This document shows positions 6,491-46,253 of a DNA stretch of 64,000 bases, one piece after another. Source of the DNA: Rahnella woolbedingensis (GTDB taxonomy: Bacteria > Pseudomonadota > Gammaproteobacteria > Enterobacterales > Enterobacteriaceae); the NCBI RefSeq assembly GCF_003602095.1, contig NZ_RAHH01000004.1, forward strand, positions 184,012-248,011. Direction: 5' to 3'. The position numbers and the translations under genes were made by a program. The notes under the pieces are model-generated. The model saw only the letters and a list, made by a program, of their open reading frames with translations, did no database searches and was not told the DNA's origin. Numbering within the stretch: the stretch's first letter is position 1; the number at the start of each line of letters is the position of its first letter.

Positions 6491-6867
<377 letters not shown>

Positions 6868-6885
6868 CTTCTATATAAAACAATA

Positions 6886-6945
6886 CGTTGATGTATCTCA
6901 AGTGCCCAGAAGCAAAAATGGGATACAGAATGGGATACATCAACG
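6886..6945. repeat. Candidate Int arm-type sites, left end
   Basis: GGGATACA occurs at 6920-6927 and 6932-6939, 12 bases apart. A perfect 12 bp inverted pair, CGTTGATGTATC (6886-6897) and GATACATCAACG (6934-6945), brackets them. The same octamer recurs at the right end. The block overlaps the integrase start, which would let the enzyme control its own expression. Confidence 0.6.
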
Positions 6946-8567
6946 GTTGTAACATCCCCCACACACTCCGCCGTAACGACATTTTCTATGTCTATTTCCG
7001 CCTTCCTGATAAACATTTTTTTCGCTGTTCGATAGGAACCGATAGCCCTCGTCGCTGTAGCCTTATTATTTCCCGCCTTATGCCGTACATATCGCTGTTT
7101 AGACTTGGTAAGATAGGGCGTGAACAATTTCTCAGGGTTCTTAGAACAATGAAAAAGCTAACCTCTCAAGATATTGATTTGTTTGTTGCAACTATGAATG
7201 CTGAAATCTTGGACTATGTTGAGGCTATACCGGCTGATGCACGTCTTGAGGTGCTGGAAGGGGAAACGACGCCGACGCCAGTTCCGATGAAACAGGGATC
7301 CGCTTCATTCTTCAAGAACTACTATGAGAATGCTTTCTTTAACGGCGGCGAGTCCGCGACGGAAACCTACTTCAATAAAGCCTTGGCGACGGTCTTTGAC
7401 ATCGCCGGTATGGAGAAACCGATCGCGGACGCCGCGTCAAAATACAGCGTCCTTCTCCATCAATCTCAGGAAGCTCAACTCGCTTTTCTCGATAGGGATA
7501 TCTCCGGCTATCGGCAGATTCTAAGCGCCATGAAACCAGTTGCCGCGCCTGTTACGCCAGCCGCTTCCGCCCCAGCGTACAGTGAACCAGAAACGCCCGC
7601 ATTGACGTTAGCGCAAGCGGTAGAGGGATTCTTGAAGTTTAAATCTGACTGGAAACCCAAGATTCGTCAGAACAACGAAAAATATTTGGAAATCATTAAA
7701 GAAGTGCTGGGGGCTGATACGTCAGTAACGAAGATTACGCGGCGTGATATCAAAAACCTCCTTGAAGTCGTGGAAGGGCTACCACTACAAAACAAGACCG
7801 CCTATAAGGGGAAAACCGCGAGAGAGCTTATCGAGCTTGATGATATCCCCGAGGATGACCTGATCTCGTCCAAAACAGTTAAAGATTATCTGAAACTTTG
7901 TCAGGGGCTGTTTTCTACTTACCTAACCGGTTATCAGGATGTACTTCCCGCTTCACCGACTAACAATGTTCGTTATGAGGCGAACAGCACCCGTTATGGC
8001 GACTATAGCCTGACGGAAATGAGTAGGTTGGTGACGCATTTTATGACGTTAGATGGCTGGAAAAAGTGGTCGTTACTTCTGCTGGCCTACACCGGCGCAC
8101 GTCGGAGTGAGATTATTTCTTTGACGGTTGGGGATGTTCGGTTAGACGAAGATTCAAATCGCCATTACATAATGATTGGGCAAAGCAAAACTGATGCCGG
8201 AATCCGGCGAGTGCCTTTGTCCGAGCATATTTTGGGTATGGGATTTCTGGCCTTTCTGGAAGGCCGGGGGAAGGAAGAAAAAATCTTCCCCGAAATCACC
8301 TACGCTAACCAACTGTCCAAAGTTTTTCATGGCATCCGTGATGATTTGGAAATTCCGTACCTGAACGATTTTAAAGAGCGCCGGGTGATCCATTCTCTGA
8401 GGCATACATTCATTACAGCAGCCAGTAAAAAGCATATTACGCAGCTCGTTCAGCGATTCGTCGGTCATGAACTATCAAACATAGGACAGACGCAAAATTA
8501 TACTCACCTGAACAGCTTTACCGTGACTGACCTGCTTCCTATCGCCGACTCCATCAACTGGCAATAA
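6918..8567 (+). CDS. Tyrosine recombinase (integrase)
   Basis: About 549 residues from the ATG at 6918; ATG codons at 6891 and 6930 are in frame and none has a good ribosome site. The N-terminus (HTLRRNDIFYVYFRLP) fits the DUF6538-type arm-binding domain, the middle fits a SAM-like core-binding domain, and the C-terminal catalytic domain has Arg395 (TGARRSEI), His492 and Arg495 (HSLRHTF), His517 (VGHE) and the nucleophile Tyr528 (NYTHL). All catalytic residues are intact. It lies against the rnpB 3' end, so it is the enzyme expected to have integrated the element there. Confidence 0.93.
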   Translation: MGYRMGYINGCNIPHTLRRNDIFYVYFRLPDKHFFRCSIGTDSPRRCSLIISRLMPYISLFRLGKIGREQFLRVLRTMKKLTSQDIDLFVATMNAEILDYVEAIPADARLEVLEGETTPTPVPMKQGSASFFKNYYENAFFNGGESATETYFNKALATVFDIAGMEKPIADAASKYSVLLHQSQEAQLAFLDRDISGYRQILSAMKPVAAPVTPAASAPAYSEPETPALTLAQAVEGFLKFKSDWKPKIRQNNEKYLEIIKEVLGADTSVTKITRRDIKNLLEVVEGLPLQNKTAYKGKTARELIELDDIPEDDLISSKTVKDYLKLCQGLFSTYLTGYQDVLPASPTNNVRYEANSTRYGDYSLTEMSRLVTHFMTLDGWKKWSLLLLAYTGARRSEIISLTVGDVRLDEDSNRHYIMIGQSKTDAGIRRVPLSEHILGMGFLAFLEGRGKEEKIFPEITYANQLSKVFHGIRDDLEIPYLNDFKERRVIHSLRHTFITAASKKHITQLVQRFVGHELSNIGQTQNYTHLNSFTVTDLLPIADSINWQ

Positions 8568-8583
8568 ATGCGAGTGTTTTAAT

Positions 8584-8629
8584 GCACAAAAACAACATTA
8601 ATGCAAATGAAAAAATTCTCATTTTGTGC
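8584..8629. promoter_or_regulatory. Nested palindrome upstream of the Fur-like gene
   Basis: Outer arms GCACAAAA (8584-8591) and TTTTGTGC (8622-8629) pair perfectly; inner arms AAATGA (8605-8610) and TCATTT (8619-8624) also pair. The inner part resembles an AT-rich Fur-type operator. It lies between int and the Fur-like gene, so it may be an operator, a weak int terminator, or both. Confidence 0.45.
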
Positions 8630-8682
8630 CTTTTGTGATAAAATCATTGTGGGCCAATAAATTAGACAAAATAGAGGACACC

Positions 8683-9027
8683 TTGAATGTAACATCACCG
8701 CCAGCCGCTTTCGCACCTCCAACTGACGCCGAACGTCTTAAGCTGGCAACAGTTTTAAATTCCGTTGACCTACGTACAACGACCCTGCGAATTAACGTTC
8801 TCCACTATCTGAATATCGCAGATGTGCCGGTAACAGCAGAAGCAGTCAGCCGCTTCGTGGACCTTCCCCTTTCAACGGCATATAGAACTCTCACCGCGCT
8901 TGAGATTAACCGTCTGGCAGGCGTGACCTTCGAACGCGGACATGTAACGCGTTGGTTCCGGTTCCTCCCGGAGACACCACAACACTGTCCGGCATGTGGG
9001 CAGAGCTTCTATACAGAGTACGCATAA
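8683..9027 (+). CDS. Small Fur-like winged-helix regulator
   Basis: About 114 residues if started at TTG 8683, which has GAGG six to eight bases upstream; a GTG at 8626 is in frame but lacks a ribosome site. The middle reads LRTTTLRINVLHYL, then TAEAVSRFVDLPLSTAYRTL, the pattern of the Fur DNA-binding winged helix (helix, then STxYRTL recognition helix). A C-terminal CPACG resembles the Cys pair of Fur, but the dimerisation domain and His-rich metal sites are absent. DNA binding is inferred from the fold pattern. The palindrome at 8584-8629 is a candidate target. Confidence 0.6.
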   Translation: MNVTSPPAAFAPPTDAERLKLATVLNSVDLRTTTLRINVLHYLNIADVPVTAEAVSRFVDLPLSTAYRTLTALEINRLAGVTFERGHVTRWFRFLPETPQHCPACGQSFYTEYA

Positions 9028-9145
9028 GCCGTACACACAAACACCGATGAGATGACCGCATATTACGGTTGCAAAAAATGACGCTCACCAGAGAGCGCCA
9101 GAGGCCTGCTATGGCCCTTACTCACCAATTCCAGAGGATTACACA

Positions 9146-9652
9146 ATGACAAAGAAGACAGCACACAGCGCCGCTGAGGGCGATCTAAAGGCATTCCTGA
9201 GCGAGGCCGCCGAAAGATTCCAACCTGACGCCAACGTACTGGCAGCGCGGATTGATACCGCCGTCAAACGGCATACAGCTACCAGCACCACACAGCGTTT
9301 AAATGCTCCCGCTCCGCTGGCTATCCAACAACTCCAGGAGAGGATTCTGGAAGGGTGGCGATATGACATCGGAATCCCTCAGTCGGTCTATCTCGCTGGT
9401 AGCTCGGGGAATATGGCAATCACGCTGTGCAAACCAGAATCGCTGGTGAAGCAGGAGATTGCCGACCTGAAAAGACAGGTTGAGGATGCATATCACGACG
9501 AGCTGGCAAACGCGATGGAACGCGAAGTCGACAAACTGGTACAAGACGCAGCCAACGAGACACAGCGCCTTGCTGAGGAAGCCGCAGCCACAGAACAGGA
9601 CGCTATGCGAAAGCTCCTCCGCGATATGCTCCTGACTGGAGCGATTGTATGA
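9146..9652 (+). CDS. Hypothetical element protein with coiled-coil C-terminus
   Basis: A 168-residue protein of unknown function. The N-terminal half is mixed; from about residue 100 on it is rich in Lys/Glu/Ala/Gln with heptad-like spacing, suggesting a helical coiled coil. There is no signal peptide or membrane segment. The ATG follows AGAGGATT, an acceptable ribosome site. It overlaps the next small gene by ATGA, so the two are probably translated together. Small helical proteins next to YfjJ-like genes are common in P4-like and inovirus-derived islands, but no function can be given. Confidence 0.7.
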   Translation: MTKKTAHSAAEGDLKAFLSEAAERFQPDANVLAARIDTAVKRHTATSTTQRLNAPAPLAIQQLQERILEGWRYDIGIPQSVYLAGSSGNMAITLCKPESLVKQEIADLKRQVEDAYHDELANAMEREVDKLVQDAANETQRLAEEAAATEQDAMRKLLRDMLLTGAIV

Positions 9653-9792
9653 GCGAGACCAAAAGCGGGCCACCAGCGCCCGCATATATCGACCCAGAAG
9701 CTCTGGAACGTGCAATAGCCGCAGCTCGTAAAATCAGGGAAGCCAACCCGGAAAAGTACAAATCCGTTCCAGCCTCACCGAAACTTTTCTGA
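9649..9792 (+). CDS. Small hypothetical protein, 47 residues
   Basis: An ORF begins at the ATGA overlap with the preceding stop and ends at TGA 9790-9792. The product begins MSETKSGPPAPAYIDPEALE and contains a predicted amphipathic helix (ERAIAAARKIREANPEKY). No family recognised. Support comes from the four-base overlap, consistent codon use and close spacing with its neighbours. Confidence 0.55.
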   Translation: MSETKSGPPAPAYIDPEALERAIAAARKIREANPEKYKSVPASPKLF

Positions 9793-9918
9793 GTGAAGAA
9801 TCTGGCAATTTGTACGACTCCGCGCCAGCAGTGGCGCGGCATGGAGATTCTTTAAGAACACAGTAACCGTACTGGTTCTTATTAATACCTGTAGTACCCA
9901 CCATCAACTGGAGGAACA

Positions 9919-10581
9919 TTGAACCATGCAGTAACCAGCCATTACGACAATGGCAGATACCACCTTATTAACTCAGCTAACTACACCTTCGACGACAACA
10001 CGTATAGCCTGAACTTCAAACCTGACAGCAAACGCCATGCGCCGATCCGTCAGGAGATAATCGACAGCTTCATTACCCAGCTCTGCGCGATGCAGTCCCA
10101 TTACAGCAAAATATTCGCCTTCCGGTTCGACCTGTCAGTACCGGTAGGAATGTCCGTCTCAGAGAGTAACAGGCTAATCAGCGACCTGTTTACCCGGTTG
10201 CGTGGCAAGTTCACCGCCAAACGCTGGAGTGGGCAGCCGATTAAGAAATTTGCATATGGCTGGGTTCGTGAACTGGAGAAGGCCAAACAGGTTCATTACC
10301 ACTGCTGGATCGCCTTGCCCCGCTTTCAGGTCAGAGTTGCTGGATTCGGCAACGAGGGCGTATACGGGCTGATAAGCATGTTCTGGAGTGAACTGACAGC
10401 CCAAGCTGGTCGCGCCCACCTATGTGATGGCTCATACACCATCAACCGGGATGACCACTCATCGCTGGTGGAACTGGTTGAGCGTGTCTCCTACCTCGCT
10501 AAAGCGCGTGGAAAATATTCTACCGGGGACGGGCAGCGTATGTTTTCTGCATCAAAGTTGAAAATACTGACCGCTGCTTAA
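9919..10581 (+). CDS. Inovirus Gp2 / YagK-YfjJ family protein
   Basis: A 220-residue protein started at TTG 9919, six bases after a strong GGAGGAA ribosome site. It has the features of the YagK/YfjJ C-terminal domain family: FAFRFDLSVP, a charged helix, then VHYHCWIALP with a His-x-His pair at 126/128, and a late conserved stretch VSYLAKARGKYS. The family groups inovirus replication-like Gp2 proteins and genes of E. coli prophages CP4-6 and CP4-57. The HxH pattern suggests a HUH-type nuclease relative, but activity is not shown. It ends 216 bases before the convergent serine recombinase. Confidence 0.75.
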   Translation: MNHAVTSHYDNGRYHLINSANYTFDDNTYSLNFKPDSKRHAPIRQEIIDSFITQLCAMQSHYSKIFAFRFDLSVPVGMSVSESNRLISDLFTRLRGKFTAKRWSGQPIKKFAYGWVRELEKAKQVHYHCWIALPRFQVRVAGFGNEGVYGLISMFWSELTAQAGRAHLCDGSYTINRDDHSSLVELVERVSYLAKARGKYSTGDGQRMFSASKLKILTAA

Positions 10582-10797
10582 CCGGGTTCGCCTCTACCGG
10601 GCAATCCATACGCACAAGAAAAATATCTGGGTCATTTCCCATGACAAATTTGTCTCCAGCAGGCGCACCAACGCCCACAGCGATCCACACGCCGCCGGTT
10701 TTCTCACATTAAACAGGCAATAAAAATCCCCGCACATGGCGAGGATCTCAATACGCCCGACCGTCTTAGGTCGGTGCTTTGGATTGTGGACGGCGGA

Positions 10798-11430
10798 TTA
10801 GCCAGTGATAGCGGTATCTTTTAGACTCTTGCTCACTTTGGCAACCGTCGCACGGGAACAGTTCACCGTTTCCATGATATCACTGTACGACATACCCGCT
10901 TTCAGCAGTCTGGCGATCTTCTCGTTGCGCTGGGCGTCTTCCGGGCGACCTTTGTATTTGCCAGCCTCCTTCGCCTTGCTGATTCCTTGCTCCTGACGGC
11001 GTTTACGGTCGGTGTAGTCCTTACGTGCAATGGCGGCGAGCATATCCAACATCATCCCGTTCAATGCTTCCAGCATACGGTTAGTAAACTCATCGCCGGA
11101 CTGGATTAGCTGGTGGCTGGTAGGTAAGTCTAACGCTACAACCCTGATCCCCTTGTTGCTGATGGTCTGCCGCAATACCTGCCAGTCGTCCGTCTTTAAG
11201 CGGCTCAGGCGGTCTACCTGCTCCACAAGCAATACGTCATCCTTCTGTGCGATATCCAGCAACCGGAACAACTCAGGGCGCTGCAAAGACGCTCCCGACT
11301 CGTTCTCTGTGAAATAGGTGGCGATGGTCATACCCTTAGAATGAGCGAACTCATCAAGCTGCTCTCTGGCGCGTGATGCGTTCTGCTCTTTAGTCGAGGC
11401 TCTGAGGTAAGCATAAACACGTGATGTCAT
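10798..11430 (-). CDS. Serine recombinase (resolvase/invertase family)
   Basis: A 210-residue small serine recombinase. The catalytic N-terminal domain has the nucleophile Ser12 in YLRASTKEQ and the EQVDRLSRL motif at about 70-78. The C-terminal helix-turn-helix lies at about 168-195 (AGMSYSDIMETVNCSRATVAKV). Size and domain order match Tn3/Pin-type resolvases. Three copies of an 11-mer lie directly upstream and could be its res or operator sites. Possible roles are multimer resolution, inversion of a nearby segment, or autoregulation; no inverted pair flanking a gene was found. Confidence 0.88.
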   Translation of the reverse strand: MTSRVYAYLRASTKEQNASRAREQLDEFAHSKGMTIATYFTENESGASLQRPELFRLLDIAQKDDVLLVEQVDRLSRLKTDDWQVLRQTISNKGIRVVALDLPTSHQLIQSGDEFTNRMLEALNGMMLDMLAAIARKDYTDRKRRQEQGISKAKEAGKYKGRPEDAQRNEKIARLLKAGMSYSDIMETVNCSRATVAKVSKSLKDTAITG

Positions 11431-11459
11431 GGCGGTGTCCCTTATTAGTCTGTTTTTAG

Positions 11460-11528
11460 TGGTTCAATAATAACAGTCTATTAAGAGTGGTTCAATAAGT
11501 GTTTTTCCCGGCCTGACTGGTTCAATAA
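11460..11528. repeat. Three 11 bp iterons upstream of the serine recombinase
   Basis: TGGTTCAATAA occurs at 11460-11470, 11488-11498 and 11518-11528, that is, every 28-30 bases. The block begins 30 bases upstream of the recombinase start. Spacing of about three helical turns puts the copies on one face of the DNA, as expected for a res site or operator array. Confidence 0.7.
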
Positions 11529-11540
11529 ACCAGTGCCTAT

Positions 11541-11666
11541 TTAGGTATACCCAAACGATACTTGGTTGGATGACTGAGACTGGCATATAATTACAGATAC
11601 GGGTTTACGATCGCTGATACCGGTCATGAAGTCGTTAAATTCATTTAGGCCTTCCTCGATTGCCAT
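11541..11666 (-). CDS. Possible 41-residue protein downstream of the AbiJ-like gene
   Basis: A minus-strand frame begins MAIEEGLNEFNDFMTG and ends VSFGYT. The frame stays open upstream of this ATG for about 16 more codons, where there is a GGAGG but no standard start. It is on the same strand as the AbiJ-like gene, 114 bases after it. No family recognised; coding status is uncertain. Confidence 0.25.
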   Translation of the reverse strand: MAIEEGLNEFNDFMTGISDRKPVSVIICQSQSSNQVSFGYT

Positions 11667-11780
11667 CAGATGTTCTGCTGTACATCTATTCTGGTTTCCT
11701 CCATTTAAAATCTCTCATTATTGTTTTTAATCGATAATCCTCTGCTAATGTTGGTTCTGCATCAGAATGGAGGTGTCAGT

Positions 11781-12647
11781 CTACTGCGGCAATTCCGACA
11801 ATTTAGCTTTCAGGAAATTGCAAAACGCACTGCATGTAACCAACATAAACTTGGCGTCTGCATAAGAGGGGGGCTCTGACTCATCCGTTAACGCATGGCG
11901 AATACCGCCACTGTCGCTGGTATAACCATATAACTGTAGAAAGGCGCGCTTTAAAGCGGGATGAAAAGAGCATGTTTTTTCGAGTTCTGTTAGTGCATCA
12001 CTGAACTTTTTCGTGTTGGTGCCAGCTAACGTGTTGCATAAACTTTCTACTGCGGAAATGGATTCTTTAATCGAATTACGATAATCAGGAGATCTGCGGT
12101 CAGATAGCAACGATAATGCTCTCTGGAAATGGGATTTTACAGAGTTCCCGTTTTCTTCAAGGGCTGTCTCTATTGCGTTAATCTCATTATCATCACTGAC
12201 AGCAACAAATTTAGAGCCAACAAATCTATAAGCTGAATTTTCACGTTCAAGCATATGATTAAGAAATTTGTCCGCTTTACTTCTTACGTTATCCGTTAAG
12301 TTGAATTCATTAAATATAAATTCTACAAAATCATATGCTTTCCACCACTTTGTTGAACTGCTCAAAAAAAACTTACGACAGACTGAGAATGCACAATCAT
12401 CCGTCAAGGTTTCTAAGTAATCGTAAGAAAAAAATCGTGGGCATCCATCAAGGGGTAACTTAAAAAAAGTAAACCAAATTCTTCTTGCAACACTATCTAA
12501 CTGAGAATTAGTTTCGTGATTATTTTCATCCCAGAAGCAAACCTGCAATACATTCCACAGTCCATTGCGTAACTCTTCATCCATCGACTCCAGTTGAATG
12601 GCTTTCACTAAAGGGGTGATTCCCATTCTTTGAGAAAACAAGGTCAT
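11781..12647 (-). CDS. AbiJ-like abortive infection protein
   Basis: A 288-residue protein. The N-terminus (FSQRMGITPL, then IQLESMDEELRNGLWNVLQ) fits the AbiJ_NTD4-type domain. The C-terminal region (SIKESISAVESLCNTL, then HPALKRAFLQLYGYTSDSGG followed by IRHALTDE) fits the HEPN-like Abi C-terminal domain found with it. Proteins of this make-up are associated with phage defence, and HEPN domains often act as RNases. The family assignment is from motif memory; the defence role is inferred from family and from its place in a mobile element. A good ribosome site (AGGAAG) precedes the ATG. Its DNA is more AT-rich than the flanking core genes. Confidence 0.7.
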   Translation of the reverse strand: MTLFSQRMGITPLVKAIQLESMDEELRNGLWNVLQVCFWDENNHETNSQLDSVARRIWFTFFKLPLDGCPRFFSYDYLETLTDDCAFSVCRKFFLSSSTKWWKAYDFVEFIFNEFNLTDNVRSKADKFLNHMLERENSAYRFVGSKFVAVSDDNEINAIETALEENGNSVKSHFQRALSLLSDRRSPDYRNSIKESISAVESLCNTLAGTNTKKFSDALTELEKTCSFHPALKRAFLQLYGYTSDSGGIRHALTDESEPPSYADAKFMLVTCSAFCNFLKAKLSELPQ

Positions 12648-13557
12648 CTTTCTTCCTCATGCCATTACCAGTAAGTGTGAATAATGATTGGAATTTCTAT
12701 TGATGTCCATAATTTGAATGGTAAAAGTACCATCCATCCTTGTGAATATGCTGGACTTGTTCAAACCTACGGAATTACCTCGAATAGAATCTTAAAAGTG
12801 CCGAAAGGCCAACAAAAGATAAGTGTAATAATAAATCAATTAATTGATTAATAAGTAGATTCTTTAGAATCATGGCAAAAGAACCAGCTCTTAGAGGGCT
12901 ATCGGTTAAGTACCGCAACCCATGAGCCAGAGGCGTAATCACAAGCAGGATATTTTTCCATCAACCGGTTGCATCTTGATGGGGTATCAATAATCCAGTT
13001 CCAGGGGAAACATCCCTCCCGCTATATGCCCCATGTGATCAGTAGTTAGGTTATAGCTGTCCTATAATCACCTTCTTGCATCGATTCAGCAGTTAATTCC
13101 CATTATTAAATTAAACCACTGGTTTTTTGAACATATAGCAAAATTCCGCCTAAAAAGACCTGTAATCGTTTATCGCAGTTATCCTGGCTATCATGTCAAG
13201 AATAGTAAAAAACCCCGGAGAATCGATTTGACGACCTTGTGGGGCATAAAATAGGCGTAATCAGTAGAATTTAGATGTGTAATGAAGGGGGGCGTGGTAG
13301 CATTAAGTTTCTGGTGATCATGGATCCCAGAAACGAAAAAGCAGCTATCAGGTAAATGGCCTTGGAACCGACACCCGATAGCTGCTCATGCTCCAGTTCA
13401 GAGACTGAAGCGGCTCAACCAAATATTTGCAGATCTGGTTAAGCCGTGCGTAACATTACGGCTAATTGACGCAGATTTCCAGAAGATTTTGCGTTATATC
13501 AAACCTTGCTTACGTCTCTGCTCTGGTTTTATCCGTTATGAAATGGAGTAAACCATT
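12648..13557. other. Long non-coding stretch with clustered hairpins
   Basis: About 900 bases between the divergent AbiJ-like and HTH genes. No solid gene: the longest candidate is a 55-codon frame at 12684-12851 (+) without a ribosome site. The right part (13340-13463) holds three overlapping inverted repeats described separately. The rest has no recognised feature. Confidence 0.6.
13340..13463. repeat. Cluster of three inverted repeats
   Basis: AGCAGCTATC (13340-13349) pairs with GATAGCTGCT (13377-13386). CGGCTCAACCA (13411-13421) pairs with TGGTTAAGCCG (13436-13446), one mismatch. AGCCGT (13442-13447) pairs with ACGGCT (13458-13463). The block lies about 95-220 bases upstream of the HTH gene. 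It could be an origin, a structured RNA or a cis-regulatory region. Confidence 0.5.
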
Positions 13558-14091
13558 ATGACAGCGAAAGATTTTAACCAGCGTAAGGTCACTGACGATT
13601 ACGCACCCGATCAAGCCCGCCAAAAACTAACTTCCTTCTTCGAAAACCATCCAGTTGCCTTGGAAACAGTGCAAACCCTGAATCGCACGCAAGCGTGTGT
13701 TCTTGCTGCACTCTTGGATGATAAATCGATTACAACATCAGGCTACACCATCCCTGCGGATTACGGTGTAAAGCGTGCTTCTGCGGTAATCCACGCATTA
13801 GATAAGGAATATTCATTTCCGATATCGAGTCGTCGTGTCGAAACAGAATCAGATGTTGGCAATCGAACTAAACAGTCACTATTCTTCATTACCCGAGAAG
13901 ACCAAGAACGATTGAAAGTCGAGCCAGAAGTAGTATTCAAAGAACGTCATGATAGTGCCTGCCGTAAGAAGGAAAGCCAGGCGCAGAAAGAGATCAAACG
14001 CTTAGTGAAAGAGTACGGTGAAGATGGGGTTCGCGAGCTTCTTGAGCGCACGGCGAATGATGAAGCCGGCCCAGATTCCAATGCGGGTTAA
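13558..14091 (+). CDS. Helix-turn-helix protein of the element
   Basis: A 177-residue soluble protein. The central part (TQACVLAALLDDKSITTSGY, then YGVKRASAVIHALDKEYSFP) has the layout of an HTH_39-type winged helix found in phage and prophage proteins: a helix, an ITTSGY turn, and a helix selecting an alternative, followed by a beta wing ending FFIT. The C-terminal third is charged and helical. GGAG lies ten bases before the ATG. DNA binding is likely; target unknown. It could control the structured region upstream of it. Confidence 0.55.
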   Translation: MTAKDFNQRKVTDDYAPDQARQKLTSFFENHPVALETVQTLNRTQACVLAALLDDKSITTSGYTIPADYGVKRASAVIHALDKEYSFPISSRRVETESDVGNRTKQSLFFITREDQERLKVEPEVVFKERHDSACRKKESQAQKEIKRLVKEYGEDGVRELLERTANDEAGPDSNAG

Positions 14092-14384
14092 TTAACGCAG
14101 CCAGAACATAGTCGGAGCTTCGGCTCCGGCTACATCTAAGATACTATATAAATAGATTAAGACCTGAACTACCTGCCACTCAGGCAACACCAGATATTTG
14201 AAAATTACAGCGAGGAATTCTCGTTGTCCCCCCAGTATTGTCAGACAGCGGTGAGAACACACCAGCGTGAAAAATAGCCTGCTGAATATTTCCCGGTAAG
14301 TCAGTTACAGACGCAAAGGGGATGGCGGAACCCCTCCGGGGGCGGGATATGGGGTAGCGTAAGCCACTACCCCAGAGAACAATT
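14092..14384. other. Intergenic stretch with two small hairpins
   Basis: No gene seen. A tetraloop hairpin CGGAGC-TTCG-GCTCCG lies at 14113-14128, just after the HTH gene and without a T-run. A second stem GGGGTAG/CTACCCC (14351-14373) follows the end of the minus-strand zinc-ribbon gene. Confidence 0.5.
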
Positions 14385-14987
14385 TTAACGGAAGTCCTTC
14401 ATGGTGAACCTGTGCGCGATATCCTCGGAACTGGTGTAAACCTCTGTTATCATCAATATTGCATTTTTGATGGAAAACTCCACATTGAAATCGACAATCC
14501 CCGATCCGTTCCATCGGTCAGAACTCTGTCCTGATTCAGTCCAGATCACATTATTGCCAGAGAGCTTGCAGTCGAATGAATATTGATTACCATCAGGCGG
14601 ACGATGATAAGAGATTTTAAACACGCCTGCCGGATTAGCTTTTACAGTTTTGATCGTATTTACTTCACGCCCGAACATTCCGCTGATTGCAGCCTTACAA
14701 ACCTGAGCAGCCGTAAAAGGTGCCGTTGAAGCCGGAGCCAGATTTACGGGAGCAGCGGTTTTGAGCCTGATTTCTCCCATTGAGGCCGAAGCGCTTTCCG
14801 TGGATGCATGATTGCTACCTGACGATTTATCATCAGTAAACGCGATCCACCCAGTCCATCCAATTACTGCCAGCAAAAAGACTCCTCTGAGCGGCGAAAT
14901 ATAAGGTTTTTTTACTCCGCAGGATGGGCATACCTTCGCGCTGCTCGAAATGCTATGCCCACATTCACGGCATTTTTTCATTGCCAT
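14385..14987 (-). CDS. Zinc-ribbon membrane protein, unknown function
   Basis: A 200-residue protein. The N-terminus is a zinc ribbon with Cys6, Cys9, Cys20 and Cys23 (CRECG and CPSCG). One membrane segment follows at about 34-50 (GVFLLAVIGWTGWIAF). A Ser/Ala-rich linker then leads to a roughly 110-residue C-terminal domain on the far side of the membrane, with no recognised family. Two ATG codons (MAM) are possible starts; the first has GAGG seven bases upstream. Proteins of this layout occur in prophages and islands of enterobacteria. Confidence 0.7.
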   Translation of the reverse strand: MAMKKCRECGHSISSSAKVCPSCGVKKPYISPLRGVFLLAVIGWTGWIAFTDDKSSGSNHASTESASASMGEIRLKTAAPVNLAPASTAPFTAAQVCKAAISGMFGREVNTIKTVKANPAGVFKISYHRPPDGNQYSFDCKLSGNNVIWTESGQSSDRWNGSGIVDFNVEFSIKNAILMITEVYTSSEDIAHRFTMKDFR

Positions 14988-14996
14988 ATCCGGGCC

Positions 14997-15239
14997 TCAA
15001 TCGTTGACTTCAACAGTCCAGCGACCGCCGCGATCCTTGATGGTGTACTCATACACATCATCGCAGAACACAGTAAAAGCGTTGCTAAAGTGGGCAGGAT
15101 AGACTCCATTCACCTTGTTACATTGATAGTCTGCCGCCTGGATTAAGGCCTTCGCCTCTGCCTTCATTTCCGGCGAACCGTCATCTGCATACGCATTACC
15201 CGCCAACAATCCCAGCACAACCAGAAGTATTTTTTTCAA
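14997..15239 (-). CDS. Small secreted hypothetical protein
   Basis: About 80 residues. The AAGGAG ribosome site (15246-15251) touches the ATG at 15245 but is six bases from TTG 15239, so TTG is the likelier start, giving the classic signal peptide MKKILLVVLGLLAGNAYA cut before ADDGSPEM. The mature part has two Cys residues (YQCNK, VFCDD) that may form a disulfide in the periplasm. Function unknown. It lies nine bases upstream of the zinc-ribbon gene on the same strand and may be co-transcribed with it. Confidence 0.65.
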   Translation of the reverse strand: MKKILLVVLGLLAGNAYADDGSPEMKAEAKALIQAADYQCNKVNGVYPAHFSNAFTVFCDDVYEYTIKDRGGRWTVEVND

Positions 15240-15405
15240 AGTCATCTCCTTGAACAAAATTGAAATAATAAAAAACCTAAGATTTATCTTAACCACGTTG
15301 ATCAATTAATTCGATCTTAAAGGTCAGTATTTTCGATCGAACGAGGTGTAAACTCCGTGTATGAATTGTGAGCAGCGCAAAGTTACCTGAAAGGAGCAGA
15401 TTGGA

Positions 15406-15615
15406 ATGAAGCGGTTTTCTTTGGTTTTTTGCGCTTTATTGGCGTCATTCAGCGCCGTCGCCGGACGGATCACCATGAGTGCACCAGAGCAGTCAACGAC
15501 GGAGAGCGGACAAACATTGTGTATCTACAGCAACTCGATCTACACGTTTACATACGTCACGAAGTCAAAGCATTGTCCGTACAGCAAGACGTTCGATACT
15601 GAGAACGCCGAGTAA
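15406..15615 (+). CDS. Small secreted hypothetical protein, 69 residues
   Basis: A clear signal peptide (MKRFSLVFCALLASFSAVAG) is followed by a short Ser/Thr-rich mature peptide with two Cys residues (TLCIYS, KHCPYS). AAGGAG lies ten bases before the ATG. The gene is divergent from the other small secreted gene and is the last gene before the right end of the element. Small exported Cys proteins of this kind are common cargo in enterobacterial islands; no function is known. Confidence 0.65.
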   Translation: MKRFSLVFCALLASFSAVAGRITMSAPEQSTTESGQTLCIYSNSIYTFTYVTKSKHCPYSKTFDTENAE

Positions 15616-15654
15616 ATCAGGTGCGATTGGTTGATGCGTAGGCGGACTTTATCC

Positions 15655-15686
15655 GGGATACAAAGTGGGATACAGTACGTGATACA
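15655..15686. repeat. Candidate Int arm-type sites, right end
   Basis: GGGATACA at 15655-15662 and 15667-15674, then GTGATACA at 15679-15686, each 12 bases apart. The same octamer and the same 12-base step occur at the left end beside the integrase. Confidence 0.6.
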
Positions 15687-15735
15687 TGACTAACGTGGCG
15701 CTTGATTGCACCAGTGTATTGTTAGAACGAGCCGA

Positions 15736-15751
15736 CTTAACGGTCAACTCC
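15736..15751 (+). repeat. attR core repeat (rnpB 3' fragment)
   Basis: An exact copy of the 16 bp rnpB 3' end sequence at 6850-6865. It marks the right boundary of the element, and the pre-insertion rnpB sequence resumes after it. Confidence 0.9.
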
Positions 15752-15762
15752 CTCGTCAAAAG

Positions 15763-15794
15763 AAAGCCCGCGTAGCTAACACTACGCGGGCTTT
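15763..15794 (+). terminator. Displaced native rnpB terminator
   Basis: A perfect 13 bp stem AAAGCCCGCGTAG/CTACGCGGGCTTT with a six-base loop, directly after attR. Its position relative to the rnpB end fragment is that of the rnpB terminator in other enterobacteria. It is now 8.9 kb from the gene it served. Confidence 0.8.
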
Positions 15795-15828
15795 CGCCTT
15801 TTCCGGTCATCATTCCAACTGCCGATGC

Positions 15829-42988: not shown

Positions 42989-43043
42989 TACAATCCTCAT
43001 CTGGTGCTCATATTGCTCATGTGAGCACCAGATGAGGATTGTA
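42989..43043. repeat. Perfect 22 bp inverted repeat with 11-base loop
   Basis: TACAATCCTCATCTGGTGCT.. (42989-43010) is the exact complement of 43022-43043. It lies 43 bases from the IS right end and 29 bases after the candidate immunity gene on the minus strand. There is no T-run, so it is not a typical terminator. Confidence 0.85.
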
Positions 43044-43072
43044 AGATGATTATTTAAATTATATAAAATTCA

Positions 43073-43438
43073 TTATTGAGAAGGTAATAGTGGTTTTAGT
43101 ATCCCGTCACCAGTTAAGTCATCTTTGTCACTTGCCATTTCATGCGTTTTTTGGGATACGTATACACTGAATATACGAGGGTGAGTTTCAGGGTCTCCTT
43201 TACATTTCCCTCCATGCTTTTCTAATACATCGACAAGATCAATACCCGCCTCTATATTCTTTGTGAGAAAGTAGTCAGTGCATTTAACATCACGAACCAA
43301 GTTTTCTTGCTCGACCGTCATCTTGACTAACGAGATCACTGGATCTATTTTTATATTTTCATTAGCCATGCTTGGGTAGACTATTACTGAGGCAAAAATG
43401 AGAATTATTAAATATTTAATGTTAGCTTTATTTAACAT
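43073..43438 (-). CDS. Candidate T6SS immunity protein, exported
   Basis: A 121-residue protein with an N-terminal signal or anchor (YLIILIFASVIVYPSMA at about 9-25) and a small mature domain with two Cys residues (KCTDYFL, GGKCKG). It is reminiscent of small periplasmic Rap1a/Tai-type immunity proteins in size, Cys pattern and location, but family membership is not secure. It lies 14 bases after the GH73 effector gene. A periplasmic immunity factor is what a peptidoglycan-cutting effector requires. A truncated paralog lies beyond the IS. Confidence 0.6.
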   Translation of the reverse strand: MLNKANIKYLIILIFASVIVYPSMANENIKIDPVISLVKMTVEQENLVRDVKCTDYFLTKNIEAGIDLVDVLEKHGGKCKGDPETHPRIFSVYVSQKTHEMASDKDDLTGDGILKPLLPSQ

Positions 43439-43452
43439 TGTTACAACCTTTT

Positions 43453-44301
43453 TTATTTAGATTTAGGAACATCATAATCACTTAATCCATTTGCGCGAAT
43501 TATTGAGATTAAAAGCTTCTCATAGTCAGGATTTGTTGCATATCCCGCTTTTGCAACCTCATGAACAAATTTTTCTGGGTCATCTGTAAAATTAAAAGCT
43601 GCTGAGTATCTATGATTGCCAGCGAGAAAATTTCCGTAATCATCAGCAGATTGTTCTAAAGTATCATACGAGCGAAAGCTATCTTGTATCAAGGTTGATT
43701 TGTTTCCATAGGTTTCGTGAGTAGTAATTATTATAGACTTTCCCTGCGATGATTTTCCTTTAATTCCAAAGTATATATTTCCCCTGGTTTTAGTACCATA
43801 AGCTGATTCTAACGCTCCTTGAGCAATTGTCACTGCTATTGGAATTCCTAAACGAGCCTTTAACTTTATAGCCGCTGGTAGAGCCCTATTGATCCAAACT
43901 GTCTTAATGTTGTCTGGTTTAGCATTTCTCTCTAATTTTCTCATACTAGGATCATCAGGCAGTATCGTGCTTTTGGAACGTGTACTTGAAAATTTTGTAT
44001 GCGGAGATGAAGCTTTAGGGCGTTTATGATGGAGAGTTGTTTTTGTCCTGCTATTTCTCAACCTACGCTGGGTTGGACCTCTTGGATCAACAATTCCATC
44101 GAATTTTCTCATATGTAATTGTATTCTCTGGAAAAGCTCAATTCGATATTTTGTTTTGGGACCAAAAAAACCATCTTCTTTTAATAATAGTTGAGGTGTT
44201 TTTTCATCAGTCGATCTATTTAGCAGCATTTGGATTTTCTTTACGTCATCTCTTCTATTCGGTTGGCCAACTCCAACACCCGATTTTATCTTCCAACGCA
44301 T
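43453..44301 (-). CDS. GH73 peptidoglycan hydrolase, putative T6SS effector
   Basis: A 282-residue protein without a signal peptide. Residues about 1-80 fit a PG-binding domain (IQMLLNRS, then LKEDGFFGPKTKYRIELFQR). A basic Ser/Thr/Lys linker follows. Residues 135-275 form a FlgJ-type N-acetylglucosaminidase domain with catalytic Glu165 in QGALESAYGTK and the usual YFGIKG and AGYATNPDY motifs. Absence of a signal, position directly after hcp and an exported partner gene argue for delivery by the T6SS into the periplasm of rivals. Coding DNA is more AT-rich than the core T6SS genes. Confidence 0.82.
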   Translation of the reverse strand: MRWKIKSGVGVGQPNRRDDVKKIQMLLNRSTDEKTPQLLLKEDGFFGPKTKYRIELFQRIQLHMRKFDGIVDPRGPTQRRLRNSRTKTTLHHKRPKASSPHTKFSSTRSKSTILPDDPSMRKLERNAKPDNIKTVWINRALPAAIKLKARLGIPIAVTIAQGALESAYGTKTRGNIYFGIKGKSSQGKSIIITTHETYGNKSTLIQDSFRSYDTLEQSADDYGNFLAGNHRYSAAFNFTDDPEKFVHEVAKAGYATNPDYEKLLISIIRANGLSDYDVPKSK

Positions 44302-44394
44302 TTTATTTCACCTTTCTGTTAGCATTGGCAAGTGTTTTTACTTAAGCTTAAAATTCTCAAATAAAATCGTTACTTGCCAGTGTAATTCATTTAG

Positions 44395-44874
44395 TTAAAA
44401 CACTCTTTCATTCCATAGACTATAAGCACTTGTTCCTGCAATGATGTGCTCCCAAGTTATTGTTTCATAAGAAAAGGATAGCTCTTCATAAGCTTGGGCG
44501 TTGTTGTCATCAATAGTGTTAGGAAAAACTAAACTTATGTCACTAAGCCGTGCCTTTGTGAGCTTTATTTTAAAGAACAGCTCGTCTTTACCAAATCTGT
44601 TTGTCCGATAAATATCTAGATTAACAGTAAGTATTTCATTCTCTGAAATCGCTTTTCCAAGTAATGGGGATGACTTATCTATAGGCTTCGTTACTACTAC
44701 AGGATGATGATTAACATTTTCCTCTCTGGAGAGAATATGCGACAACTCATAAACCATTATCTGATCCAAATGTGCGATCTGTGCTTTGTTCCCAATCGAA
44801 TCCAGCGATGAGCATCCTGCTGAAATCAGACCCTGGGTTTGTCCTGTGAGGGTTAAGTAAATAAGGTTGGCCAT
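44395..44874 (-). CDS. T6SS tube protein Hcp
   Basis: A 159-residue Hcp-family protein (TssD). Typical features: MANLIYLTLTGQTQGLISAG at the N-terminus, the HPVVVTKPIDKSSPLLGKA segment, and the ITWEHIIAGTSAYSLWNERV end. Hexameric rings stack into the inner tube and can carry small effectors in their lumen. It lies between the structural cluster and the GH73 gene, so the last three genes form an effector module. Confidence 0.93.
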   Translation of the reverse strand: MANLIYLTLTGQTQGLISAGCSSLDSIGNKAQIAHLDQIMVYELSHILSREENVNHHPVVVTKPIDKSSPLLGKAISENEILTVNLDIYRTNRFGKDELFFKIKLTKARLSDISLVFPNTIDDNNAQAYEELSFSYETITWEHIIAGTSAYSLWNERVF

Positions 44875-44924
44875 GATGTTATTCCTTTATCTTAGTCATG
44901 ATTATTAGTTGTTAGGTTTAAATG

Positions 44925-46253
44925 TCAATTATCATTTTGACGAATGTCTTTAATCAAAAAATAGCGGCTGGATAATGAGTCCATTCTCTCGTTAATTGTT
45001 TTTTCAAGAGTTTGGGTGTTTTTATTTTGTCTTTTGGCTTCTTCCAGCTGGGTTAGTAGCGCCTCAAGGGGTGTAGTCTGATTCAGCAAGGTTTCGGCCT
45101 GATAGGCGACGGTTTTGAGATAAGAAAGCGTGACGCCTTCTTTGCTTTTTTCCCGTTGCACTAATAAGTCGGAAAATGCCTGCATATCCTGACGTAATTG
45201 TAAGTATCCGCGTAAGTCAGGGCTGTTATCGGCGCGCAGTTTGAGCGCACTGTTCCAGCGGGCGATAGTTTGTTGTTGCTGTTCATTTTCAGGCCAGATG
45301 GCCGCCGCTGTTTTGGTCAGATGCTCGCCGGTTTCCAGTGCCTGCAGCGGGGCTGCGTTGAGCAAGCGGTTTAAGCGCTGCGGATACGTATTCAGCTCAG
45401 GAGATGTCAGCCAAAGTGCGCCGCCGCCCTGAGGGGTATCTCTGATCAGTGCGATTTGCTTTTGCAAAGGCGCAACCTGCCACCACCATAATCCTCCGCA
45501 GACCAGCGCCGAGCAGACAATACCCGCCAAAAAGCCGCCGATAACGGGCTTGCGGGAAGGGCGTTTTTTATTCTCCGAACCGGCGAAATGCACTTCGACT
45601 TTCGGCGCCTGCTGCACAGGCTCCATGCTCGGCAACGGCGAATAAACGGGTTCCGGATGAGTTATCTGGTCCGGCATATAGACCAGCGTCTGCGAGATGT
45701 AATGGTGAGCCTGGGAACTTTGTGCCTGCTGCTCGGCTTCGGTGCGTTTGCGGATGTTCTGCATAAAATAGAGCAGATTCTCCACGCGCGGAACGCGCTT
45801 GAGTTCGACTTGTTGCAGCTTGTCGCAGATAAGTTGCAGCGTGCGTTCAGTGCGGTACAGAAGCTGGATATCACCCAGTGCCAGTGCGGGATTTTTTCGC
45901 AGAATATTACCGATGCGGGTGTTGAACCACTCCAGCATATCGCTGCGCGCCTGGTAGTTTTGTGGCCAGAAGCGTTCCCATTCGGCGGTGATGAGCCCCG
46001 CCAGCAATTCGCAGCCTTCGCAAAATCCGGACAGTCCGTTAATTTTGGTGCGCGCCAGCGTGTAGTAAGTGGCAGTGTGCAGGTCGACGCCGTTGCTTTT
46101 GAACAGTGTCAGCGCCAGCGATTCGACAAGCCGCCAGTTAACTTCCGGCTGGGAAGGGTGATTCGCTTTATTGATTTCTTCACGGATCGCACTGAATTCC
46201 GGCAAAAAGCGCGGATCGTCCCCGAGTTTGATGATGTGTGTGTCGTCGCTCAT
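44925..46253 (-). CDS. vasL: VasL-family T6SS protein (TssA-like with membrane anchor)
   Basis: A 442-residue protein with an ImpA-type N-terminal domain (residues about 10-130; WRLVESLALTLFKSNGVDLH) as in TssA. A single membrane segment lies at about 238-260 (GGFLAGIVCSALVCGGLWWW), followed by a VasL-type helical C-terminal domain. It corresponds to V. cholerae VasL, next to vasK/tssM. Homologues of this type are thought to hold or stop the sheath at the membrane complex or far pole. It lies 42 bases after tssM. Confidence 0.85.
   Translation of the reverse strand: MSDDTHIIKLGDDPRFLPEFSAIREEINKANHPSQPEVNWRLVESLALTLFKSNGVDLHTATYYTLARTKINGLSGFCEGCELLAGLITAEWERFWPQNYQARSDMLEWFNTRIGNILRKNPALALGDIQLLYRTERTLQLICDKLQQVELKRVPRVENLLYFMQNIRKRTEAEQQAQSSQAHHYISQTLVYMPDQITHPEPVYSPLPSMEPVQQAPKVEVHFAGSENKKRPSRKPVIGGFLAGIVCSALVCGGLWWWQVAPLQKQIALIRDTPQGGGALWLTSPELNTYPQRLNRLLNAAPLQALETGEHLTKTAAAIWPENEQQQQTIARWNSALKLRADNSPDLRGYLQLRQDMQAFSDLLVQREKSKEGVTLSYLKTVAYQAETLLNQTTPLEALLTQLEEAKRQNKNTQTLEKTINERMDSLSSRYFLIKDIRQNDN

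Follow-up and report, generated by a model that had tools for sequence, protein, structure and literature searches.

The 64,000-nucleotide stretch of the Rahnella woolbedingensis genome analysed here (contig NZ_RAHH01000004.1, referred to as the window in the rest of the text) carries an 8,886-bp insert at the 3′ end of rnpB, the gene coding for RNase P RNA. Judged from its sequence, this insert is likely an integrative plasmid that carries an AbiJ-type (PDC-S32) cargo gene and that is neither of the P4 or phage-inducible chromosomal island (PICI) type nor conjugative. Two observations lead to this reading: the insert lies between exact repeats at rnpB, and its middle 2.9 kb is held in common with free small plasmids. 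In this reading, the tyrosine integrase would insert the circle at rnpB and excise it again, a Gp2-type protein, predicted to be an HUH-type Rep, would replicate it once excised, a serine recombinase would resolve multimers, and the AbiJ-type gene is predicted to defend the host from phages.

The sole Rfam match at gathering score in the window is rnpB itself. The putative attachment (att) core CTTAACGGTCAACTCC occurs twice, 8,886 bp apart; no further copy within 2 mismatches is present in the window outside these two, and shuffled windows gave a mean of 0.04 matches as a chance estimate. If one mismatch is allowed, the repeat extends to 20 bases (CCGG.../CCGA...). A search of 14 genomes of the genus, including that of R. 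woolbedingensis, found rnpB in all of them. In 12 of the 13 other congeners the site is empty: rnpB runs to CTTAACGGTCAACTCC and is directly followed by CTCGTCAA and a hairpin, the very sequence found to the right of the right-hand repeat in the window. In the 13th (G300, locus L147), a different hairpin and other genes lie 3′ of rnpB, the divergence beginning a few bases from the att core, and no integrase of the window's family was found in the 3.5 kb examined there. A preliminary description of this DNA, made from the letters alone, had placed an insert between exact 16-bp repeats at rnpB and proposed a search for the empty site in relatives; repeat search and Rfam bore out the repeats, their coordinates and the location, and the congeners supplied the empty site. 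Ends made of direct repeats and an unoccupied site in relatives are marks of an integrative element moved by a tyrosine recombinase.

Eleven likely genes, picked from a mechanical list of open reading frames (ORFs), lie between the att cores: int and ten further ORFs. The int gene begins 52 bp beyond the left core at ATG 6918, and an in-frame TTG is also present at 6888; in L033, the nearest relative element, which occupies rnpB in another host, the homologous ATG is the first possible start. Residues R395, K424, H492, R495, H517 and Y528 are invariant in all 16 relatives aligned, so that an intact integrase with the R-K-H-R-H-Y set stands beside the att core, as in other tyrosine-recombinase elements. 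PF00589 is the only family above cut-off; no match to DUF6538, the type first assigned to this protein, was obtained. A pair of GGGATACA direct repeats at each end of the insert forms probable arm sites of the integrase; the window holds six copies of this motif (two of them outside the end pairs) against 1.3 expected. A looser motif, TG(G/T)NA(C/T)ACA, a pattern picked after some ends had been seen, has 55 matches in the first 220 bp of 48 two-ended elements and 63 in their last 220 bp (several places being counted twice among the 48), compared to 0.01 per 220 bp inside the elements, and is found at neither end in 10 of the 48.

Next to the integrase lies the module that ties the insert to plasmids. 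Positions 8633-11555 are collinear with the free 5.6-kb plasmid pCAV1042-5566 (NZ_CP018667) at 84% nucleotide identity, and other small Klebsiella/Leclercia plasmids are collinear from about 8770-8850 on (81-83%). These plasmids, annotated with an 'inovirus-type Gp2', code for the winged-helix-type regulator, p168, p47, Gp2 and the serine recombinase in the order seen in the window; the first four are present in this order in all of L151-L154, and the recombinase finds a match in L151-L153, the annotated recombinase of L154 giving none. Gp2-type proteins 85-93% identical to that of the window are mostly found in small circular plasmids of the same two genera. When the whole element was compared to plasmids, 12 records matched: homology ends at 11550-11556 in nine and at 10713 in two, and one matches elsewhere. 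Homology with L033 also ends at 11556. This boundary lies just beyond three TGGTTCAATAA repeats beside the serine recombinase gene, which, within one substitution, are common to all five sequences compared. The plasmids differ from the window element in having no att core, other cargo and, in all those examined, no integrase, and tblastn found no int-bearing circle in PLSDB. The insert thus reads as a plasmid core with an integrase/att module on one side and a cargo and right-end module on the other, a modular build that explains its odd mix of genes, and it has the replicon shared with autonomous plasmids that characterizes integrative plasmids. The regulator, initially called Fur-like, gave no match of that kind, its best match being HTH_20, below cut-off. 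A second ACTGGTT-like site at 13118, past abiJ, was considered as the other border of a serine-recombinase cassette and rejected as evidence because shuffled sequences give about 3 matches per 9 kb; of the cassette evidence, only the common breakpoint at 11550-11556 stands. A known integrative plasmid, the 11.2-kb pHS87b of Pseudomonas aeruginosa, likewise carries an integrase and has an integrated form; unlike the window element, it uses a tRNA-Thr site, contains phage-like genes and has no known replication gene (PMC4739549).

The predicted replication protein has two sequence marks of an HUH rolling-circle Rep, an HUH motif and a catalytic tyrosine with YxxK. H126-Y-H128 and Y192xxK195 are invariant in the 11 sequences aligned; in 50 homologues, Y192 and K195 are present without exception and H126 and H128 in at least 90%. 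HUH Reps are among the fold matches of the predicted model (predicted local distance difference test, pLDDT, 89). In L033, gp2 is split over two frames (L033 5165-5813).

The AbiJ_NTD4 and PDC-S32 matches of the cargo gene back the defence gene (AbiJ-like) of the preliminary description as a candidate for abortive infection, and some of its homologues carry the name HEPN AbiJ-N-terminal. Other DNA occupies its position in L033. Among 30 large cargo proteins picked by size from 20 other elements (the right end of L060, from E. coli EH10-18-47, was not found and was set by hand), 15 matched PADLOC models at 1e-5, spread over 11 of the 20 elements. The matches comprise Lamassu LmuA and LmuB, NsnA-like, PDC-S32, SIR2 with HerA, PD-Lambda-2 B and C, a type II restriction-modification pair, a CBASS-type cyclase, Old-like, PDC-S25, AbiU-like and Drt8. 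The element of E. coli N921 has an annotated Drt2, and an RT-12 RNA (Rfam) lies just 5′ of it (L001 9766-9902). Between abiJ and p177, about 900 bp (12650-13550) hold no convincing gene.

Features of the insert and its flanks (positions in the window; aa, amino acids).
Feature	Position	Strand	Evidence
rnpB (class A RNase P RNA), restored at the element's left end	6491..6869	+	Rfam RF00010, 327.5 bits
Left 16-bp att core CTTAACGGTCAACTCC	6850..6865	+	Repeat search; 3′ strand of helix P1 within
int, tyrosine recombinase, 549 aa	6918..8567	+	PF00589 3.2e-13
Left GGGATACA pair, direct repeats with 12-bp spacing, the pair overlapping the start codon of int	6920..6939 (copies at 6920, 6932)	+	Repeat search
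Small winged-helix-type regulator, core member	8626..9027	+	HTH_20 7.8e-5, below cut-off; 72-76% aa identity in plasmids L151-L154
Plasmid core module (winged-helix-type regulator, p168, p47, Gp2-type Rep, serine recombinase)	8633..11556		Collinear with free circular plasmids
p168, conserved core protein	9146..9652	+	77-84% in plasmids; 172 homologues
p47, small core protein overlapping p168	9649..9792	+	77-83% in plasmids
Gp2/YfjJ-type protein, predicted HUH rolling-circle Rep, TTG start	9919..10581	+	PF11726 4.4e-12
Serine recombinase (resolvase/invertase type)	10798..11430	-	PF00239 1.1e-23, HTH_7; 89-96% in plasmids L151-L153
Three TGGTTCAATAA repeats preceding the serine recombinase gene, probable res-like site	11457..11535	+	Repeat search
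AbiJ_NTD4 / PDC-S32 cargo gene, candidate abortive-infection defence	11781..12647	-	PF18863 2.5e-31; PADLOC PDC-S32 2.7e-103
p177	13558..14091	+	No significant family match
Zinc-ribbon protein, right-end module found in rnpB, TPP and rluB elements as well	14385..14987	-	Zn_ribbon_3 1.2e-6
p102, small protein, signal-peptide-like start (by eye)	14997..15305	-	ORF list and relatives
p69, small protein, signal-peptide-like start (by eye)	15406..15615	+	ORF list and relatives
Right GGGATACA pair, same 12-bp spacing	15655..15674 (copies at 15655, 15667)	+	Repeat search
Right 16-bp att core CTTAACGGTCAACTCC	15736..15751	+	Repeat search
Hairpin of the congeners' rnpB 3′ side, likely rnpB terminator, now beyond the right end of the element	15762..15795	+	Fold -29.1 kcal/mol, z -6.8

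E. coli carries related elements at rnpB, among them what appears to be the flk flagellin islet, which was reportedly treated by Feng et al. in 2008 (J Bacteriol). An integrase of the rnpB class is present in 19 of 5,426 E. coli genomes (megablast), and most of the left junction in 34 of the 5,375 that have an rnpB match. Ten of the 19 were opened, and in each of them the annotated rnpB is followed by an integrase (split by an insertion sequence, IS, in one), a YagK/YfjJ protein, a serine recombinase and a flagellin; a flagellin repressor is annotated in nine. One of the ten is strain ECC-1470, which carries flkA/flkB on a genomic island according to PMC5422975; PMC7844058 and PMC7018530 also deal with the flk islet. 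Taking ECC-1470 as the flk example, the islet has an rnpB-adjacent integrase, Gp2, a serine recombinase, further genes and homologues of the window's right-end proteins at 48-74%, which suggests that it is a sister element with other cargo. It differs in carrying flagellin instead of AbiJ and in its integrase, about 52% identical to that of the window; neither a flagellin nor a fliC repressor was found in the window element by the ORF list and Pfam scan. The flk-type core exists off the chromosome too: the Citrobacter plasmids NZ_CP102506.1 (L157, 114-4229) and NZ_CP056202.1 carry Gp2, the serine recombinase and flagellin, and L157 also has the repressor.

For five pairs, identity over int and the adjoining part of the element was set against identity over the chromosome immediately before rnpB. 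The int region of G023 is 99.9% identical to that of E. coli EH10-18-47 over 3,220 bp, compared to 81.6% for the flank, and the element of G535 is 99.8% identical to that of ECC-1470 (flank, 78.5%). Element identity also exceeds that of the flank for Siccibacter and G023 (92.3% and 78.5%) and for the window and L033 (84.3% and 77.1%), which makes four of the five pairs, two of them strongly so; for Leclercia L096 and EH10-18-47 the order is reversed (72.2% over only 659 bp; flank, 78.9%). G023 and G535 bear different genus codes (g24 and g144), so one or both of their pairs with E. coli must span two genera. Two matches to E. coli copies at 99.8-99.9% with flanks at 78-82% show that related rnpB elements move.

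Other kinds of element were weighed against an integrative plasmid. A phage satellite packaged by a helper, whether P4-like, PICI-like, like the capsid-forming PICIs (cfPICIs) or a filamentous-phage satellite with a Gp2-type Rep, is suggested by the fold matches of Gp2, which include viral models named inovirus Gp2 and microvirus Rep, and by five sister elements at a thiamine pyrophosphate (TPP) riboswitch (L041, L043, L048, L103 and L119), which carry homologues of head and head-decoration proteins. However, the ten of the 11 ORFs scanned with Pfam and PHROGs (all but p69) gave no significant match to head, packaging, capsid-redirecting or P4/PICI primase-helicase genes, p168 touching a head family at E 0.054; p168 and Gp2 have no matching record in the phage collection, a pattern scan of IMG/VR yielded only 2 integrase relatives, and the same core lives as plain plasmids. 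We thus consider a satellite, as the preliminary description had it, very improbable.

The same description also called the island mobilisable, meaning here that a helper conjugative plasmid would move the excised circle via an origin of transfer (oriT) in cis. Near-identical copies in unlike hosts do show that related elements move, and HUH Reps can serve as nicking enzymes; yet in the ten ORFs scanned Pfam matched neither a relaxase, expected of integrative and conjugative or mobilisable elements, nor a type IV secretion system, expected of the conjugative ones, and PLSDB types 11 of the 12 element-matching plasmid records as non-mobilizable, making this reading rather doubtful. That the repeats are real and the element no longer moves in this strain is unlikely: some related copies are broken, by the split gp2 of L033, an in-frame TAG in the Siccibacter int and an IS in the int of PCP06173, whereas the window has uninterrupted reading frames for int and gp2, each with its full set of motifs, as well as undamaged att cores and repeat pairs at both ends. 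An integrative plasmid agrees with what the preliminary description had rightly seen, a compact, rnpB-targeted element without a standard P4-like, PICI or conjugative layout.

Insertion at rnpB has consequences for the RNA gene. From the sequence and the structure of M1 RNA, we take the att core to carry the 3′ strand of helix P1 (GGTCAACTCC, facing GGAGTTGACC at the rnpB 5′ end), and the core would thereby supply a matching strand and keep this helix of RNase P RNA whole. In the E. coli copies examined, the sequence at the left end is GGTCAGCTTC, which pairs in full with GAAGCTGACC of the host, while GGTCAGTTTC stands at the far end and in the repeats that lie past it; the rnpB-adjacent 3′ strand in these copies therefore probably came with the element. 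Pairing of P1 appears imperfect in L139. The hairpin that directly follows rnpB in 12 of 13 congeners is now 8.9 kb away, with int directly downstream of rnpB in the same direction, an arrangement that makes read-through from rnpB into int likely. A simple terminator scan flagged no plus-strand terminator between rnpB and int, nor did it flag the displaced hairpin; a weaker hairpin folds between the two genes (-12.4, z -1.9). By read-through, int would be transcribed from the rnpB promoter. The integrative and conjugative element ICEKp1 lends support, as its layout is the same: int follows an RNA gene on the same strand, the terminator is displaced, and the tRNA-Asn promoter was shown to drive int (PMC13023037). 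It differs from the non-conjugative element at rnpB in being conjugative and in residing at tRNA-Asn.

A first genome scan with int alone recovered no relative. A scan of genome contigs with the integrase alignment, blind to context, returned 45 loci, and in 41 of these a motif search found, just upstream, one of three sites: rnpB (3), a TPP riboswitch aptamer (27, counting L097 and L101, assigned despite an estimated int start 416 bp further on) or a near-palindrome by rluB (11). None of the three was found by motif search at L133, L134, L136 and L137 (25-46% over part of the protein). Some loci recur between searches (L094 = L035, Siccibacter; L095 = L036, Limnobaculum; L112 = L049; L126 = L051). 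Eight genomes of other families of the order matched at 1e-40 (27-43% identical), and in all eight rnpB lies upstream of int in the same direction, within about 100 bp in six, at about 260 bp in L144 and at about 1 kb in L145, whose int is broken. In a tree of 49 integrases, the TPP integrases form one clade and those of rluB another (in which one row has no assigned site), these two being sister clades, and the rnpB integrases are spread over deeper branches, from which rnpB is likely the older target. Site labels require four changes on this tree, the least possible, compared to 24.8 in shuffles (0 of 200 as low); the tree was built by a quick method with a midpoint root, has several long branches, leaves out identical or short (<430 aa) integrases, and had L144 labelled rnpB ahead of confirmation of its site. 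The rluB site lies directly before rluB (RluB identity was checked for L039); in three of the four rluB-site elements examined int reads away from rluB, and the layout of L039 resembles that at thiM.

Two-ended TPP elements have an aptamer at each end, and thiM follows the right-hand one in all 20 whose right flank is long enough (18 distinct places); in one more the flank is too short. The genome of the window itself holds a second element of the same integrase family, L043 (contig C5, 39000-58900), a 13.6-kb element with head-protein-type genes at the thiM TPP riboswitch; a flank near thiM in this genome matches Rahnella ecdela at 87.6% identity over 1,486 bp. Its left aptamer, before int, looks host-like and its right one resembles those brought by other elements; ATGCCAGCGTAG is common to both, which places the crossover at the aptamer's 3′ end. 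A TPP element hence seems to supply thiM with an almost complete new aptamer in place of the old one, and its int comes to lie behind the host's aptamer and presumably the promoter of the latter. At its end (GGAAGTC), the host aptamer is altered or replaced by element sequence, which may affect TPP sensing by that copy. In E. coli N921, no promoter ahead of the thiM-side aptamer turned up in a consensus scan. Since int lies downstream of a host RNA and in its direction at both rnpB and thiM, host promoters likely drive it at both sites. The five head-gene-bearing TPP elements named above have a gene set in common that codes for proteins of the major-head and head-decoration types and, in most of the five, for one of the helicase-loader type; they are perhaps a capsid-coding satellite type. 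Elsewhere in the window, G+C drops to about 36% over 2 kb (43000-45000), possibly a second foreign stretch.

Taken together, we tentatively propose, with doubt slightly outweighing confidence, that one integrase lineage has specialised on host RNA sites, first RNase P RNA, then the TPP riboswitch and the rluB leader hairpin. Elements at rnpB and the TPP riboswitch would take the host RNA promoter for int; those at the riboswitch, with a nearly complete spare aptamer for attachment site, would also swap aptamers with the host, giving thiM a new sensor and upstream region and keeping the host aptamer before int, and mobility may be tied to the level of vitamin B1 or to the making of RNase P.

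What surprises in this wider integrase family is the choice of target. No description of rnpB or a riboswitch as an integration site was found in titles and abstracts, in part among the top 10-30 of 84 to 1,586 papers only and with subscription papers mostly beyond reach, which is no proof of novelty; passages in PMC8776855 and PMC2705793 concern other uses of rnpB, and PMC8371274 does not contain the search terms. The elements make up a class of unnamed defence islands tied to a plasmid core that also lives free, with a series of target switches, from rnpB to riboswitch and rluB leader, within one integrase family. If the rnpB or thiM promoter does drive int, insertion would be coupled to the synthesis of an essential or a vitamin-regulated RNA. 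For defence systems in Enterobacterales, three defined places to search are the 3′ end of rnpB, the riboswitch of thiM and the leader of rluB.

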